Of a DNA stretch of 64,000 nucleotides, positions 12,604 to 64,000 are shown in pieces (the first letter of the stretch is position 1; every line of letters begins with the position of its first letter). The position numbers and the translations under genes were made by a program. A model generated the notes under the pieces. It did no database searches. It was not told where the DNA came from and worked only from the letters and a program-made list of their open reading frames with translations. Origin of the DNA: Corynebacterium auriscanis (GTDB taxonomy: Bacteria > Actinomycetota > Actinomycetes > Mycobacteriales > Mycobacteriaceae); contig NZ_CP047046.1 in NCBI RefSeq assembly GCF_030408435.1, positions 1,966,572 to 2,030,571 on the forward strand. The letters run 5' to 3'.

Positions 12604-13428
12604 ATGCTCTTTTTACCGACGACCACGTCGGTGATTGCCCGGCCGGGTGTGGGACTGCAGTTCCACATTCTGCCGGAGCACGCCGTGATTCTGCCGCTGC
12701 CCACGACCGTTCGGATTGGGCAGGTTGCACACGTTATGCTGGGCTGTCGCTTGGGTTCGGAACGCTCCACCGTGATCGCTAACCTTGGATACTGTGGTAT
12801 GGATACGGCGGTCGCCACGGACATCGTGGGTGAACTTATTCGCGCTCGGATCCTGCTGCCCAAAGCGCCACCGGCTCAGGTGCGGTTGTTGCACACGGGG
12901 CAGTTAACTTCCGCCACGCACGCTGCATTGTTGGCCAAGGATATCGACGCCCACATGGTCAGCCTCGACGCCACCACCAGGTCCACCAGCACCTTATTGC
13001 TTGGGGGCATGGTGTTTCCGCCCGGTGACGTACAGTTTTCCCTCATGGCTCATCGCGTGCCACACCTTCCCTTTGGGGTCATCGACGAGCGCGTGGTGAT
13101 CGGTCCCTTGGTCGTGCCAGGAAAAACCGCCTGCCTATCATGCTTCGACCAGCATTATCGACAATTCGATGCTGGGTGGCGGGGCGTACGGATGCAGGCC
13201 ACCGCGCGGCCGGCGGGTGCGGCAGCAACGGCTTCGACCGTGGCGGCCACGATTGTGGCGGAGTTAGTGCACCGGCATATGCTGCAGTGGATCGCTACGG
13301 GTCGGCCCGACGAAGGTATTCCCGCTGCCTTGATTGGCCGCACCATCTTGGATCCCAGTACGGGCCGCAGCGAGGTCACCCACGTGGCGCCTGCCACGGA
13401 TTGTCCGGTGTGCCGGTTGGCGGGTTAA
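12604..13428 (+). CDS. E1-like / cyclodehydratase-type protein with paired CxxC zinc site
   Basis: The 274-residue product is related to the ThiF/E1-like 'bacteriocin biosynthesis cyclodehydratase' proteins. Family traits are a winged-helix-like N-terminal part, the phrase VVIGPLVVPGKTACLSC, and two CxxC pairs (177-180 and 267-270) that would form one zinc tetrad. No YcaO enzyme, precursor peptide or exporter is nearby, and the gene is conserved beside the Zincin_2 gene in relatives, so it is more likely a housekeeping protein of unknown function than a RiPP enzyme. The ATG follows a strong TGGGGGGAC site. Its 3' end is part of an 83-bp tandem repeat. Confidence 0.75.
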   Translation: MLFLPTTTSVIARPGVGLQFHILPEHAVILPLPTTVRIGQVAHVMLGCRLGSERSTVIANLGYCGMDTAVATDIVGELIRARILLPKAPPAQVRLLHTGQLTSATHAALLAKDIDAHMVSLDATTRSTSTLLLGGMVFPPGDVQFSLMAHRVPHLPFGVIDERVVIGPLVVPGKTACLSCFDQHYRQFDAGWRGVRMQATARPAGAAATASTVAATIVAELVHRHMLQWIATGRPDEGIPAALIGRTILDPSTGRSEVTHVAPATDCPVCRLAG

Positions 13429-13594
13429 CTACGTGTACTCGGGCTAACGTCCATCTCGAGTCATCATCCCCGCCATCACGTGTGCGCCCGGTGTGCCGGT
13501 TGGCGGGTTAACTACGTGTACTCGGGCTAACGTCCATCTCGAGTCATCATCCCCGCCATCACGTGTGCGCCCGGTGTGCCGGTTGGCGGGTTAA
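13405..13594. repeat. 83-bp tandem repeat (2.3 copies) at the E1-like gene end
   Basis: Copies begin at 13405, 13488 and 13571 with CCGGTGTGCCGGTTGGCGGG. The first two 83-bp units are identical by eye, and the third stops after GGTTAA. The first 24 bp of each unit are the last codons (CPVCRLAG end) plus the TAA, and the rest is 3' flank. The arrangement is A-B-A-B-A. The spacers are identical, so it is not a CRISPR. Confidence 0.95.
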
Positions 13595-13637
13595 TTACGC
13601 AGCCTCATCAAGATTCATCCACGACAGGCGTGAATTC

Positions 13638-48870: not shown

Positions 48871-49803
48871 ATGGACAAAGAGCGGAACCACCCCGCTCGC
48901 CCCGCCGAGCGCACCGAAGCTACGCCGCAAGATAGCGGCGAGCAGTCGAGTGGTCGTCGTTTTATCGCCGGCTTCGCGACGGTCGGTCTTGGCCTGGCCG
49001 CAATTGTTGCCGTGTGGTCGTGGCAGTCCACTGGTTCCGACCACTCTGCGATGAAGGGGGCATCCCCAGCCAGCCAAGAAGCCGCCTCAATTTCGACTGG
49101 GCACCCTACGAATCTACCCCAGGGTTCCCATGAGACCGCGCGACCTGATCACCGCGATCACGCAAACTTGCCTTCCGAGGCCAGCACTGGAATGTCAGAT
49201 GAAACCAAAACGGGCGGCAAGCGGGGTTCGGGCATTGCCGCATTAGGGCGCGATCCGTACCTTCCGCCGAATGCGTGGGACGGTTCCCGCTCCAACGGCC
49301 TAACTGGCCCTACCGAAACGGTGCAGCTGTCCCCGGTGAACCCAGTTGAGGGCGGGCAGACGCAAAATAACCAGCCGCTGAATCCCGGCACTGCGAGCAA
49401 CGTTCCGGCTCCGCAGGCGCCGTCGTCCACACCGACTGCACCCCAGGGCCAAACGGGCAACGGTCAGCAGCACATCCCGACCATCCCCGGCCTTCCCACG
49501 CAGTGGGTGCCCACAGATATTCCTCTGCCTATCCCGAATCAAACTAAGCCTACGAATCCCGCCAACACCGCTCAGCCCACCCAACCAAGTTCAGATAGTG
49601 GTGCCACGGGCACGGCAAAGCCGATGCCCACCCAGCCGGGAACTACGGGGACTCAGCACCCGGAGCAGACGAACGAGCCGACGACCGCTCCTCAAACAAC
49701 GGATACGGTGGCTCCTCAACCCCCATCACGCCATGGCCCCTGGCCTATTCCGAATTGGGGTTCCGCTGTCAACAACGTAACTGACACGACGGAAACCCAG
49801 TAA
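48871..49803 (+). CDS. Membrane-anchored Pro/Thr-rich extracytoplasmic protein
   Basis: No family recognised. The 310-residue protein has a charged cytoplasmic N terminus, one membrane helix (about 30-50), and a long disordered outside region dominated by Pro, Thr, Gln, Gly and Asn. Such cell-wall-spanning low-complexity proteins are common in corynebacteria. The ATG follows CAGGAG. A promoter with a putative MtrA box lies upstream. The last 25 codons are duplicated downstream in a 79-bp repeat that includes the stop. Confidence 0.75.
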   Translation: MDKERNHPARPAERTEATPQDSGEQSSGRRFIAGFATVGLGLAAIVAVWSWQSTGSDHSAMKGASPASQEAASISTGHPTNLPQGSHETARPDHRDHANLPSEASTGMSDETKTGGKRGSGIAALGRDPYLPPNAWDGSRSNGLTGPTETVQLSPVNPVEGGQTQNNQPLNPGTASNVPAPQAPSSTPTAPQGQTGNGQQHIPTIPGLPTQWVPTDIPLPIPNQTKPTNPANTAQPTQPSSDSGATGTAKPMPTQPGTTGTQHPEQTNEPTTAPQTTDTVAPQPPSRHGPWPIPNWGSAVNNVTDTTETQ

Positions 49804-49884
49804 GCCACGCCATGGCCCCTGGCCTATTCCGAATTGGGGTTCCACTGCCAACAACGTAACTGACACGACGGAAACCCAGTAAGC
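49727..49884. repeat. 79-bp tandem duplication of a gene end
   Basis: The 79-bp unit CACGCCATGGCCCCTGG...CCCAGTAAGC is present at 49727-49805 and 49806-49884, differing at only a couple of positions. The first copy contains the last codons and TAA of the gene ending at 49803. Immediately beyond, CGCAATCCCGCGCG is itself repeated (49891 and 49923). Confidence 0.95.
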
Positions 49885-60615: not shown

Positions 60616-61365
60616 TTATCGAACATCCGCCCGGGAATTGCGCCAGAACCCTAGGACGAGCAGCGCGATAACCCAGATGGCCAGCACGGTGACGGAGAAG
60701 GTGGGCGTCAAGAAATCGGCACCACGTTCGGGAATGAGGTACCACTTATCGATGTCCTGCATCGTGCGGGCAGGAAGGAACTTAGCCAGAGTTTTCAGCA
60801 GGGAGACATTGCTGCCAACGCTCATGATGAGTGGTTCGATAACCAACATCCACACCAGTGGCAGGCCCACAGCTGCTACGCGGGAACGCACGATCGCGGC
60901 GATGCCGATTGCCAGCAACGCAAAGGCCAGAACCCCGCCGAAGGTGGTAGCTAGAGACACACCCTGCTCCGGCTTGAACTCAGCGCCCGGCCACACCGTG
61001 ACCATCAAAATGGTGAGCGCAACAGCAATAGCCACCGTGACGGCAAGGAAAACAACTGAGACCACTGCGCGCGCCCCCAGCCAATTCCAGCGGGATCGCT
61101 CGGTCAGGAAGGCCTGGGCGTGCATCTTTGAAGCGATTTCACCCGCGGTGCTGGAAGCACCAAAAATCACTGCGATCATCTGGGTGATCATGCCACCCAT
61201 CAAAAGGTCAGTCCACGTCACGGCGTTTTTTTCAGTGGCAAAAGCCAAGTAGAGGAAGACCGGGCCGCCGATCGATCCGCCGAGGAGGATGAAGTAAACC
61301 AACGTGCTGCGCAAAGTCAGCAGCTTGGTGGTTTCGGATTTGAGTGCTGCAAGAAAACTGCTCAT
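60616..61365 (-). CDS. ABC-2 type transporter permease
   Basis: The 249-residue membrane protein has about six hydrophobic helices and the ABC-2 permease pattern, starting MSSFLAALKSETTKLLTLRSTLVYF and with AGEIASKMHAQAFLTERSRWNWLGARA. It pairs with the ATPase 43 nt upstream to form an exporter of unknown substrate. A neighbouring NarL-type two-component system suggests regulated efflux, for example of antimicrobial peptides (inference). ATG 61365 after AAGAAGAACA. Confidence 0.87.
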   Translation of the reverse strand: MSSFLAALKSETTKLLTLRSTLVYFILLGGSIGGPVFLYLAFATEKNAVTWTDLLMGGMITQMIAVIFGASSTAGEIASKMHAQAFLTERSRWNWLGARAVVSVVFLAVTVAIAVALTILMVTVWPGAEFKPEQGVSLATTFGGVLAFALLAIGIAAIVRSRVAAVGLPLVWMLVIEPLIMSVGSNVSLLKTLAKFLPARTMQDIDKWYLIPERGADFLTPTFSVTVLAIWVIALLVLGFWRNSRADVR

Positions 61366-61408
61366 GAGAAGTGTTCTTCTTTCGTTGCTGAAGGGTTGTT
61401 AGGGAAGG

Positions 61409-62365
61409 CTAGTTCTGTACTTGTCCGGTGCGGTATTCCTGCGCGCTGGAGGTGGCCGCTAGGAATCGCTGCTCCAAGTTCGCCTGTTCGGAAACCAGTT
61501 TGGTGACCAAGAAATTCTCCTCCAGCGCGGTGCGCGCCACCAGTTCCCGCAGTTGTGCCTCGTTTAAATCTTCAGGCAAGCTGATCTGCACCGTCCGCGG
61601 GTGCTGCAGCTCCACTTGCAATCCCTTGGCCTGCAGCTTCTCGCCCAGCAGCACAGCTTCGCGGCATTCCACGCTAACCGTGGCGCCACCGGCGAGGAAT
61701 TCGTCCATGGAGTACTCACCGATCATTTGGCCCTTGCCGATCACAACCAATCGATCGGCCGTCAGCTGCATCTCGCTCAGCAAGTGGGAGCTCACCAACA
61801 CGCTTCGTCCCTCTCCCGCCAAGGCGCGGATAGTATTGCGCATCCACGTCACACCTTCGGGGTCCAACCCGTTAACCGGCTCGTCCATAATCAGGTGCTG
61901 GGGATTCCCCAATAGGGCCGCTGCCAATCCGAGGCGTTGCTTCATTCCCAGTGAATACCCGCCGGCTTTCTTCTTGCCTGCCTTCGTCAGGCCCACGATT
62001 TCAAGGCATTCATCTACGCGCTTATCGTCGATACCCGCGCCGTGAGCCAGCACCCGCAGGTGGTTGCGCCCCGACCGCGCGGGATTGAACCAGGTGGCTT
62101 CCAACACGGAACCCGCGATGCTGGACTTGTTCGCCAACCCTGCGAATTCACCGCTGTAGGACTGACCATTGCGGTAGTTGCCGCTGAAATTCACATGTCC
62201 CGCGGATGGTTGATCCAACCCCAGCATGCAGCGCATGGTCGTGGACTTGCCCGCCCCATTAGGCCCCAGGAAGCCAGTGACCTGCCCATCGGGCACATGG
62301 AATGTGAGGTCGGAAAGGACTTTGTTTTTGCCGTAGCTCTTGCTGAGCTTTTCTACTGTGATCAT
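61409..62365 (-). CDS. ABC transporter ATP-binding protein
   Basis: The 318-residue ATPase has Walker A GPNGAGKST, a Q-loop region, signature YSLGMKQRLGLAAAL, Walker B LIMDEPVNGLD and H-loop VLVSSHLLSEMQ. The C-terminal 90 residues are the regulatory extension typical of the DrrA/CcmA-like exporters. ATG 62365 with a GGGA site; an upstream frame to 62452 has no support. It feeds energy to the permease downstream in the same operon. Confidence 0.92.
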   Translation of the reverse strand: MITVEKLSKSYGKNKVLSDLTFHVPDGQVTGFLGPNGAGKSTTMRCMLGLDQPSAGHVNFSGNYRNGQSYSGEFAGLANKSSIAGSVLEATWFNPARSGRNHLRVLAHGAGIDDKRVDECLEIVGLTKAGKKKAGGYSLGMKQRLGLAAALLGNPQHLIMDEPVNGLDPEGVTWMRNTIRALAGEGRSVLVSSHLLSEMQLTADRLVVIGKGQMIGEYSMDEFLAGGATVSVECREAVLLGEKLQAKGLQVELQHPRTVQISLPEDLNEAQLRELVARTALEENFLVTKLVSEQANLEQRFLAATSSAQEYRTGQVQN

Positions 62366-62500
62366 GATTCCCAGTGTGCTGGTTTGCCCTGGGTTTCCAC
62401 ATCGGCCCAGCGGATGATTATTGCCCGTCACCCGTAGAGTGGAGGCCGTCATACCCTGGTATGAGAATCCCCGACGCGGTATCCCGAGTCCCTTCCCCCA

Positions 62501-62604: not shown

Positions 62605-63369
62605 CTATTGCGCTAACAATTCCTCTTGGCTGACCAAATGCTGCTTCAACGCGAACAGCACCGCATGCACCCTGTCGCGCGAGGCGGTCTTCGTCAGGAT
62701 CCGGCCCACGTGAGTCTTAACGGTCGGCAGGGAAATAAAGAGTTCCTCGGCGATTTCTTGGTTGCTCCGCCCGGTAGCAATGAGGCACAAGATCTGCCGC
62801 TCCCGGGGCGTCAGCGGATCGGGAAGTCCCAGGTCGTCGTCCAAACCCGGTTTCTCTTCTGCTGCCTGGTCGCTGGTCTCACTGGTTTTCTTTTGTACCG
62901 ACGCCCCGCTTCGCCCATCCCCGTTCCCCTCTGTCCGCAGGCGCCGCATGAGTTTCGCTGTTGCAGCAGGGCTAATGACCGCGGTGGATTCTCCTACCGT
63001 GCGCACTGCTTTGATGAGCTCCTCGGGATCGGCATCCTTGAGTAGAAAGCCACTGGCGCCCGAAGTTACCGCACCGAAGACGTAATTATCGCTATCAAAG
63101 GTGGTCAATACGACCACACGGGTCGGCTGACCCGCGGGCCCTGTGGGTGCCTGCTCATCCAAGATTTTTTGGGTTGCAGTAATCCCATCCATGGTCGGCA
63201 TCTGTACATCCATCAGGATGATGTCAACAGGATGACTGCCCGCAAGGTCGGTGGCTTCCGCCCCGTTGGAGGCTTCCCACTCCACAGTGATGTCTTCTTG
63301 GCTTCCCAGTACCATTGCAAAACCCGCACGCACGAGTTGCTGGTCATCCGCCAAACCCACGGTAATCAT
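62605..63369 (-). CDS. NarL/LuxR-type response regulator
   Basis: The 254-residue regulator has a receiver domain (D8, D9, phospho-acceptor D54 in LMDVQMP, K107-type LLKDADPEELI) and a C-terminal LuxR HTH (LTPRERQILCLIATGRSNQEIAEELFISLPTVKTHVGRILTK). The linker between them (about 140-190) is longer and more acidic than usual. ATG 63369 overlaps the TGA of a preceding mini-ORF (ATGA), and GAGGGAGG lies 10 nt upstream. The partner kinase lies 253 nt upstream across tandem repeats. The ABC exporter downstream is its likely target. Confidence 0.93.
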   Translation of the reverse strand: MITVGLADDQQLVRAGFAMVLGSQEDITVEWEASNGAEATDLAGSHPVDIILMDVQMPTMDGITATQKILDEQAPTGPAGQPTRVVVLTTFDSDNYVFGAVTSGASGFLLKDADPEELIKAVRTVGESTAVISPAATAKLMRRLRTEGNGDGRSGASVQKKTSETSDQAAEEKPGLDDDLGLPDPLTPRERQILCLIATGRSNQEIAEELFISLPTVKTHVGRILTKTASRDRVHAVLFALKQHLVSQEELLAQ

Positions 63370-63389
63370 AGCCGCACTGCCTCCCTCAT
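63366..63389 (-). CDS. Mini-ORF 4 (7 codons) overlapping the regulator start
   Basis: ATG AGG GAG GCA GTG CGG CTA TGA; the stop overlaps the regulator's ATG as ATGA. Its second and third codons are the regulator's Shine-Dalgarno sequence. Translation is not shown; the arrangement suggests coupling. Confidence 0.4.
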   Translation of the reverse strand: MREAVRL

Positions 63390-63391
63390 AC

Positions 63392-63460
63392 TCACTCGCT
63401 CCCGTATAACTTAACCAGCCCGCCGGCCCGCGCGCTGCACCGCCGCACGGCCTCCCTCAT
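63392..63460 (-). CDS. Mini-ORF 3 (22 codons) in the 71-bp repeat array
   Basis: Starts at the ATG overlapping the stop of mini-ORF 2 and ends at TGA, two bases before the ATG of mini-ORF 4. The GGAG is 9 nt before the ATG. The sequence begins MREAVRRCSARAGG. Confidence 0.4.
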   Translation of the reverse strand: MREAVRRCSARAGGLVKLYGSE

Positions 63461-63531
63461 ACACACTCGCTCCCGTATAACTTAACCAGCCCGCCGGCCC
63501 GCGCGCTGCACCACCGCACGGCCTCCCTCAT
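63457..63531 (-). CDS. Mini-ORF 2 (24 codons) in the 71-bp repeat array
   Basis: Same sequence as mini-ORF 1 (begins MREAVRWCSARAGG, ends LYGSECV). Its ATG overlaps the TGA of mini-ORF 1, and its TGA overlaps the ATG of mini-ORF 3. Confidence 0.4.
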   Translation of the reverse strand: MREAVRWCSARAGGLVKLYGSECV

Positions 63532-63602
63532 ACACACTCGCTCCCGTATAACTTAACCAGCCCGCCGGCCCGCGCGCTGCACCACCGCACGGCCTCCCTC
63601 AT
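63528..63602 (-). CDS. Mini-ORF 1 (24 codons), 20 nt after the kinase stop
   Basis: ATG at 63602 has GGAG 9 nt upstream (in TTGGAGCGAGTG). No internal stop. It ends in TGA overlapping the next ATG. The peptide is basic with two cysteines and matches no family I know. Confidence 0.4.
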   Translation of the reverse strand: MREAVRWCSARAGGLVKLYGSECV

Positions 63603-63622
63603 ACACACTCGCTCCAACTGTC

Positions 63623-64000
63623 TTACCCGGCCAGCGGTATCGTAGCGGTCACGTTCCAACCACCAGGGAACAGGGGGCTTGCACCCCAGGTGGCCTTCCC
63701 TCCATGAATTCGGACGCGCTCTGCGATTCCGGTCAACCCTCGCCCTGATCCATCCATGGCATCTTCGCCGGGCGCGTTATCCACGGTCACGATGACGGAA
63801 TTCGGTTCCCACAATAGTTTTACCCGCACTTCTACAGCCCCAGCATGCTTCAGCACGTTCGTGAGCGATTCTTGAACCACACGGTAAATCGTCAACCCTC
63901 GGACCTCATCGACCGTGCGCTCTGTACCTTCCGTTTTAAAGGTGGCATGGGTGCCGGACCTATTGGCGTCGGAAATAAGATCCCCCAAGCCCGAAACACC
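63623..64000 (-). CDS. Sensor histidine kinase, NarL-partner type (C-terminal part; runs off the window)
   Basis: The frame is open to the last base of the window, so only the C-terminal 125 residues are seen. It has the end of a HisKA_3 domain (GLGDLISDANRSGTHATF), then an HATPase domain with the N-box VVQESLTNVLKHAGA, VDNAPG (G1) and GRGLTGIAERVRIHGG (G2). The family phosphorylates LuxR-type regulators, here the gene 253 nt downstream. The stop TAA at 63623 is followed after 20 nt by the first mini-ORF. Confidence 0.92.
   Translation of the reverse strand, partial: GVSGLGDLISDANRSGTHATFKTEGTERTVDEVRGLTIYRVVQESLTNVLKHAGAVEVRVKLLWEPNSVIVTVDNAPGEDAMDGSGRGLTGIAERVRIHGGKATWGASPLFPGGWNVTATIPLAG

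Follow-up and report, generated by a model that had tools for sequence, protein, structure and literature searches.

The window, that is, the whole stretch of 64,000 nucleotides that was analysed, belongs to a genome of 2,599,172 bases in one contig. Near its end, a sensor kinase gene and a response regulator gene lie on the minus strand, with a gap of 253 nt between the kinase stop codon (TAA, 63625-63623) and the regulator start codon (ATG, 63369). The pair has the composition of a NarL-type two-component system, a HisKA_3 kinase adjoining a regulator with a receiver and a LuxR-type HTH domain (Pfam matches above cut-off), and among the matches listed, neither protein has an NCBIfam equivalog at cut-off. 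The kinase gene extends past the window end (428-aa frame, L114 4195-5481). An identical regulator is present on 15 contigs. The gap holds a tandem array which TRF reports with a period of 71, 3.4 copies, and 98% matches. The features, in the direction of transcription, are:

63623..64000, minus strand: sensor kinase gene, 3' part, with HisKA_3 and HATPase_c domains
63372..63615, minus strand: tandem array of a 71-bp unit, 3.4 copies (TRF)
63612..63615, minus strand: GGAG, 9 nt 5' of the ATG of mini-ORF 1 (read from the sequence)
63528..63602, minus strand: mini-ORF 1, 24 codons, ATG at 63602; its TGA overlaps the ATG of mini-ORF 2 (ATGA)
63457..63531, minus strand: mini-ORF 2, 24 codons, ATG at 63531; its TGA overlaps the ATG of mini-ORF 3 (ATGA)
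63392..63460, minus strand: mini-ORF 3, 22 codons, ATG at 63460; its TGA is followed by 2 nt and the ATG of mini-ORF 4 (TGAGTATG)
63366..63389, minus strand: mini-ORF 4, 7 codons, ATG at 63389; its TGA overlaps the regulator ATG (ATGA)
63541-63544, 63470-63473, and 63399-63402, minus strand: GGAG copies ahead of mini-ORFs 2-4 (read from the sequence)
63380..63385, minus strand: GGGAGG within mini-ORF 4, 10 nt 5' of the regulator ATG (read from the sequence)
62605..63369, minus strand: response regulator gene, NarL type, 254 aa, with Response_reg and GerE domains
61409..62452, minus strand: ABC transporter ATPase gene (domain scan over 61409-62365)
60616..61365, minus strand: 249-aa frame, next 3' of the ATPase gene

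Counted from the kinase stop codon, the four mini-ORFs start at +20, +91, +162, and +233 and the regulator at +253, all with ATG and each with a Shine-Dalgarno (SD) core. Three of the four links are overlaps of the ATGA type (-4) and one is a +2 gap; mini-ORF 1 opens 20 nt past the kinase TAA. A same-frame GTG two codons 5' of every mini-ORF ATG is an alternative start. The GGGAGG within mini-ORF 4 is likely the ribosome-binding site of the regulator. The coordinates given in the initial annotation, the 71-bp unit, the ATGA overlaps, the gap at TGAGTATG, and the final ATGA at the regulator start were all re-read as claimed, and the GGAG motif 9 nt ahead of each mini-ORF ATG was borne out on the sequence. 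The annotation had assigned a frame of 24 codons to each unit, which holds for mini-ORFs 1 and 2. Mini-ORF 3 has only 22 codons because a T-to-A difference creates the early TGA of TGAGTATG.

The ABC transporter genes (60616-62452) lie directly 3' of the regulator and are possibly its targets. The 249-aa frame, which has no Pfam or NCBIfam match, is likely the partner permease of the ATPase.

The chain had been described as MIRU-like by the initial annotation. MIRUs have a size of 40-100 bp and occur in 41 places in M. tuberculosis H37Rv, as stated in the available part of PMC2734929. One of their sites is the senX3-regX3 gap (Supply et al. 1997, as cited in excerpts of PMC12548453, PMC2734929, and PMC7884335). 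The end-to-end design of the mini-ORFs does match MIRUs as reviewed in the accessible text of PMC12548453. Membership in that family was not supported, and it was rejected as the main reading: all three matches of the unit in its own genome are inside the focal array, and no near-full-length relative turned up in the other genomes searched. A dispersed family within the genome was likewise rejected, as an nhmmer search with the unit over 864,000 sampled bases of the genome retrieved no copy outside the focal array. The annotation had also proposed a search of the unit against corynebacterial genomes. Among 241 other Corynebacterium genomes (E <=0.01, up to 3 candidates scored per genome), 49 had matches, none of them longer than 49 nt; in a sample of 199 further genomes from the order (E <=0.001, up to 4 candidates scored per genome), 24 had matches, none longer than 40 nt. 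A true MIRU, descended from the mycobacterial repeats and inserted at a start codon, would fit with respect to size class (PMC2734929, in part), the -4 stop-start overlap (PMC12548453, likewise in part), and the two-component operon setting. We nevertheless consider such a descent highly improbable, given a unit which is confined to one locus of its own genome, has no further copy in the 864,000-base sample, and has a near-full-length match in 0/241 and 0/199 of the other genomes.

The orthologous kinase-regulator junctions of 37 other genomes were compared; this set includes L007 and L011, in which the short upstream frame is perhaps not that of a kinase. None of the 37 junctions carries a tandem repeat. 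The initial annotation had counted absence of the array from close relatives as one part of what would speak against its reading, and this part is what we find. In the five nearest relatives, in which the regulator is 70-80% identical, the junction gaps are 95-131 nt, without repeats and not of the ATGA type. A -4 start is available at 11 of the 37 junctions. In three of eight other junctions examined, one upstream frame (GTG/TTG start, no repeat) has its end at -4 relative to the regulator start, so that the last link alone is not special.

Tandem arrays (period 40-150, at least 85% matches) were surveyed in 60 stretches of 20 kb plus the window, totalling 1,264,000 bases or 48.6% of the genome. 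There were 53 arrays, which corresponds to 41.9 per Mb, versus 4 arrays in 400,000 bases (10.0 per Mb) in the nearest relative, G180, none of them between same-strand genes. Short tandem arrays are thus about four times denser in the host genome than in this relative. As the host genome is rich in short tandem duplications, the simplest view is that the focal array is such a duplication. The array looks like a locus-specific tandem duplication rather than a dispersed MIRU, because its unit occurs nowhere else in the genome, has no match longer than 49 nt in the 241 other Corynebacterium genomes, and is missing from 37/37 junctions. Judged from the sequence, the chain of mini-ORFs is real and well-formed and, as far as searched, specific to the species and the locus.

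Two arrays elsewhere in the window (13405-13599, 83-bp unit; 49727-49884, 79-bp unit) have a first unit which contains the 3' end of a gene including its stop codon, so that the gap carries a further copy of the gene tail while the protein is unaltered. A 50-bp array with 2 copies (L147 1804-1901) has a single ATG link, which is antisense to the flanking genes.

There is a serious rival to a reading as a ribosome relay. According to this rival, 40-150 bp duplications are frequent in this genome, the array is a neutral minisatellite, and the chain is the chance result of a unit length of 3n+2 together with one ATGA, leaving the mini-ORFs idle. The array density, when compared to that of G180, and the absence of the array from all 37 other junctions both favour it. 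We see this as a real possibility, although we lean against it, and the bearing of chance was addressed by shuffling. The unit was permuted with dinucleotides kept and placed between the real flanks (4,000 shuffles per setting), and success was defined as a complete kinase-to-regulator relay of at least two mini-ORFs. When ATG or GTG starts were allowed, 21.3% of the shuffled units gave a complete relay, which favours a neutral origin. With ATG starts only, the value fell to 2.0%. If an SD core was required at each start, a condition picked after the finding was known, complete relays were obtained in 0.15% (ATG) or 0.95% (ATG/GTG) of the shuffles. This rarity argues against neutrality, as does the frame, which is open on the coding strand from 20 nt past the kinase stop exactly to the regulator start.

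The test was extended to the six sampled arrays which, by a crude ORF-based gene call, are located between genes of the same strand. With ATG/GTG starts, two of the six have a complete relay (the focal array and L151), with 0.85 expected from shuffles; with ATG only, one was seen versus 0.37 expected. Once the SD core was required, again chosen with the finding in hand, one relay was seen (the focal one) versus 0.011 (ATG) or 0.029 (ATG/GTG) expected. A separate test for ATG links in 38 arrays from 864,000 bases gave three linked arrays versus 1.75 expected, and a value of 0.078 for the focal array. In the L135 array, a relay path exists once TTG starts are permitted and is gone with ATG/GTG. 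A plain mini-ORF chain is therefore compatible with chance. A chain with a ribosome-binding core at every start is not easily obtained by chance. Overall, the relay goes beyond chance only in part.

The second complete relay connects a permease gene with an ABC ATPase gene:

L151 6509-6656 (genome ~2,186,510-2,186,660), plus strand: 74-bp unit, 1.9 copies, permease/ABC ATPase junction

Its chain runs from the permease stop (TGA/ATG) through 25 codons, TGA/GTG, another 25 codons, and TGA/GTG to the ATPase start. The L151 mini-frames seem to have been inserted into a coupled junction with the coupling left intact, because the permease and ATPase genes are directly joined by ATGA in the four homologous junctions read (L215, L216, L217, and L219, of five loci that also include L218; ATPases 50-53% identical). 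The shuffled L151 unit gives a relay in 26% (ATG/GTG) or 15% (overlaps only) of the cases, so that this relay is not rare by chance. By nhmmer, nothing but the L151 unit itself scored above the inclusion threshold in the 864,000 sampled bases. The likeness between the focal and the L151 unit is not significant, with 5.7% of 1,000 shuffles being as good.

A further array (L149 7106-7358, minus strand; 74-bp unit, 3.4 copies) is located at a junction which, judged from the translations, is between a methionyl-tRNA synthetase-like and a transporter-like gene. It has 24-codon frames joined by TGATG, and, under the rule applied, its chain misses the start codon of the transporter-like gene.

For the focal locus, we propose that the four mini-ORFs of the array relay ribosomes that terminate on the kinase gene to the regulator start, each unit serving as a natural fore-cistron, and that the unit arose by tandem duplication here alone. 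We rate the prospects of this proposal as about even. In such a relay, kinase and regulator would share one transcript. Ribosomes finishing the kinase would restart 20 nt 3' at mini-ORF 1 and would then advance through the units by termination-reinitiation. The 7-codon mini-ORF 4, a short frame which contains the SD sequence of the next gene and has a stop codon overlapping the next start, could act as the fore-cistron that holds the regulator start open. The 71-bp unit would have been born by tandem duplication at this locus only, and the number of units would be predicted to shift the regulator yield per kinase, up or down. As each mini-ORF start has its own SD core, fresh initiation inside the array is possible, too.

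Precedent comes from C. glutamicum, where engineered fore-cistrons with an internal SD sequence and a stop-start overlap raise expression (PMC10367133 and PMC7251831, both in excerpt) and where a mutated start or SD sequence of the fore-cistron lowers it (available text of PMC10367133). The predicted opening energy is 10.3 kcal/mol at the regulator start and 5.8-8.2 kcal/mol at the four mini-ORF starts; among 31 ORF starts that have an SD core, these values rank at the 71st and the 26th-42nd percentile, respectively. A higher value at the regulator is expected if it needs delivered ribosomes; the modelled difference is small. The relay is also favoured by its rarity in shuffles when every start must have an SD core, by a coding strand on which the scan of the array gave no terminator-like or sigma-70-like site, and by the second relay at L151. 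Several observations stand against the relay. Not every link is an overlap, as the step from the kinase to mini-ORF 1 spans 20 nt and that from mini-ORF 3 to mini-ORF 4 spans 2 nt, and the relatives manage without the array at 37/37 junctions. In addition, with GTG allowed, 21% of the shuffled units complete a relay, and over the six arrays two relays were seen versus 0.85 expected.

The array might instead act as an RNA or DNA structure, its GC-rich units folding and slowing ribosomes or nucleases, or holding a promoter or operator of the regulator. The junction RNA has a predicted folding energy of -114.7 kcal/mol (z -2.10), slightly better than that of shuffles, 6 of 200 of which fold equally well. 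The fold pairs unit with unit, however, which is to some degree open to any tandem repeat. A scan of the array for terminators and for this one promoter type gave neither a terminator-like nor a sigma-70-like site on its coding strand, and Rfam had no match up to E = 1 for positions 63000-64000. We consider a structural role unlikely.

If the relay works, the regulator-to-kinase ratio, which is important in two-component signalling, would be set by a short repeat whose copies are easily gained or lost. The MIRU layout would then be a design that is reachable from scratch and not the heritage of one family, and the locus would provide a test bed for how far termination-reinitiation can pass bacterial ribosomes. 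The sampled half of this one Corynebacterium genome holds two complete relays, the focal one and L151. A broader idea, which we offer as speculation and would sooner doubt than accept, is that tandem mini-cistron relays arise repeatedly from unrelated sequences wherever minisatellite-prone genomes duplicate operon junctions, and that the unit count might be an evolvable dial for protein ratios, independent of MIRUs.

Literature searches on repeats, MIRUs, or coupling, in Corynebacterium or generally, returned no Corynebacterium case among the matches listed. The focal array resembles MIRUs in having a 71-bp intergenic unit, in its site between kinase and regulator, and in unit ORFs coupled at -4 (three of four links). 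According to the accessible part of the review PMC12548453, the ORF of a MIRU unit is coupled to the gene that follows it at -4, and the unit slips into a coupled junction with the coupling kept. MIRUs are scattered while the focal unit was found at one place, and no near-full-length relative turned up among the 241 and 199 other genomes. Insertion at a coupled start codon fits L151, where the coupling stayed intact as the review describes for MIRUs, better than the focal junction, whose relatives have gaps of 95-131 nt and not ATGA.

VNTR3239, located 5' of fpg1 in M. tuberculosis, is also an intergenic tandem repeat, and its length correlates with the expression of the next gene. Its effect was measured as mRNA, and a mini-ORF relay is not part of its description in the available text of PMC2734929.

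The bicistronic design which works in C. glutamicum (PMC10367133, in excerpt) shares with the focal array a short frame that contains the next SD sequence and has a stop codon overlapping the next start. It is engineered, with a single fore-cistron after a promoter, whereas the focal array has four natural ones, arranged in series after a full gene. The junction type itself is identical to that of ordinary -4 (ATGA) operon coupling, as available at 11/37 of the other kinase-regulator junctions. What distinguishes the focal locus is that the overlap is repeated, via mini-ORFs that bridge a 253-nt gap.
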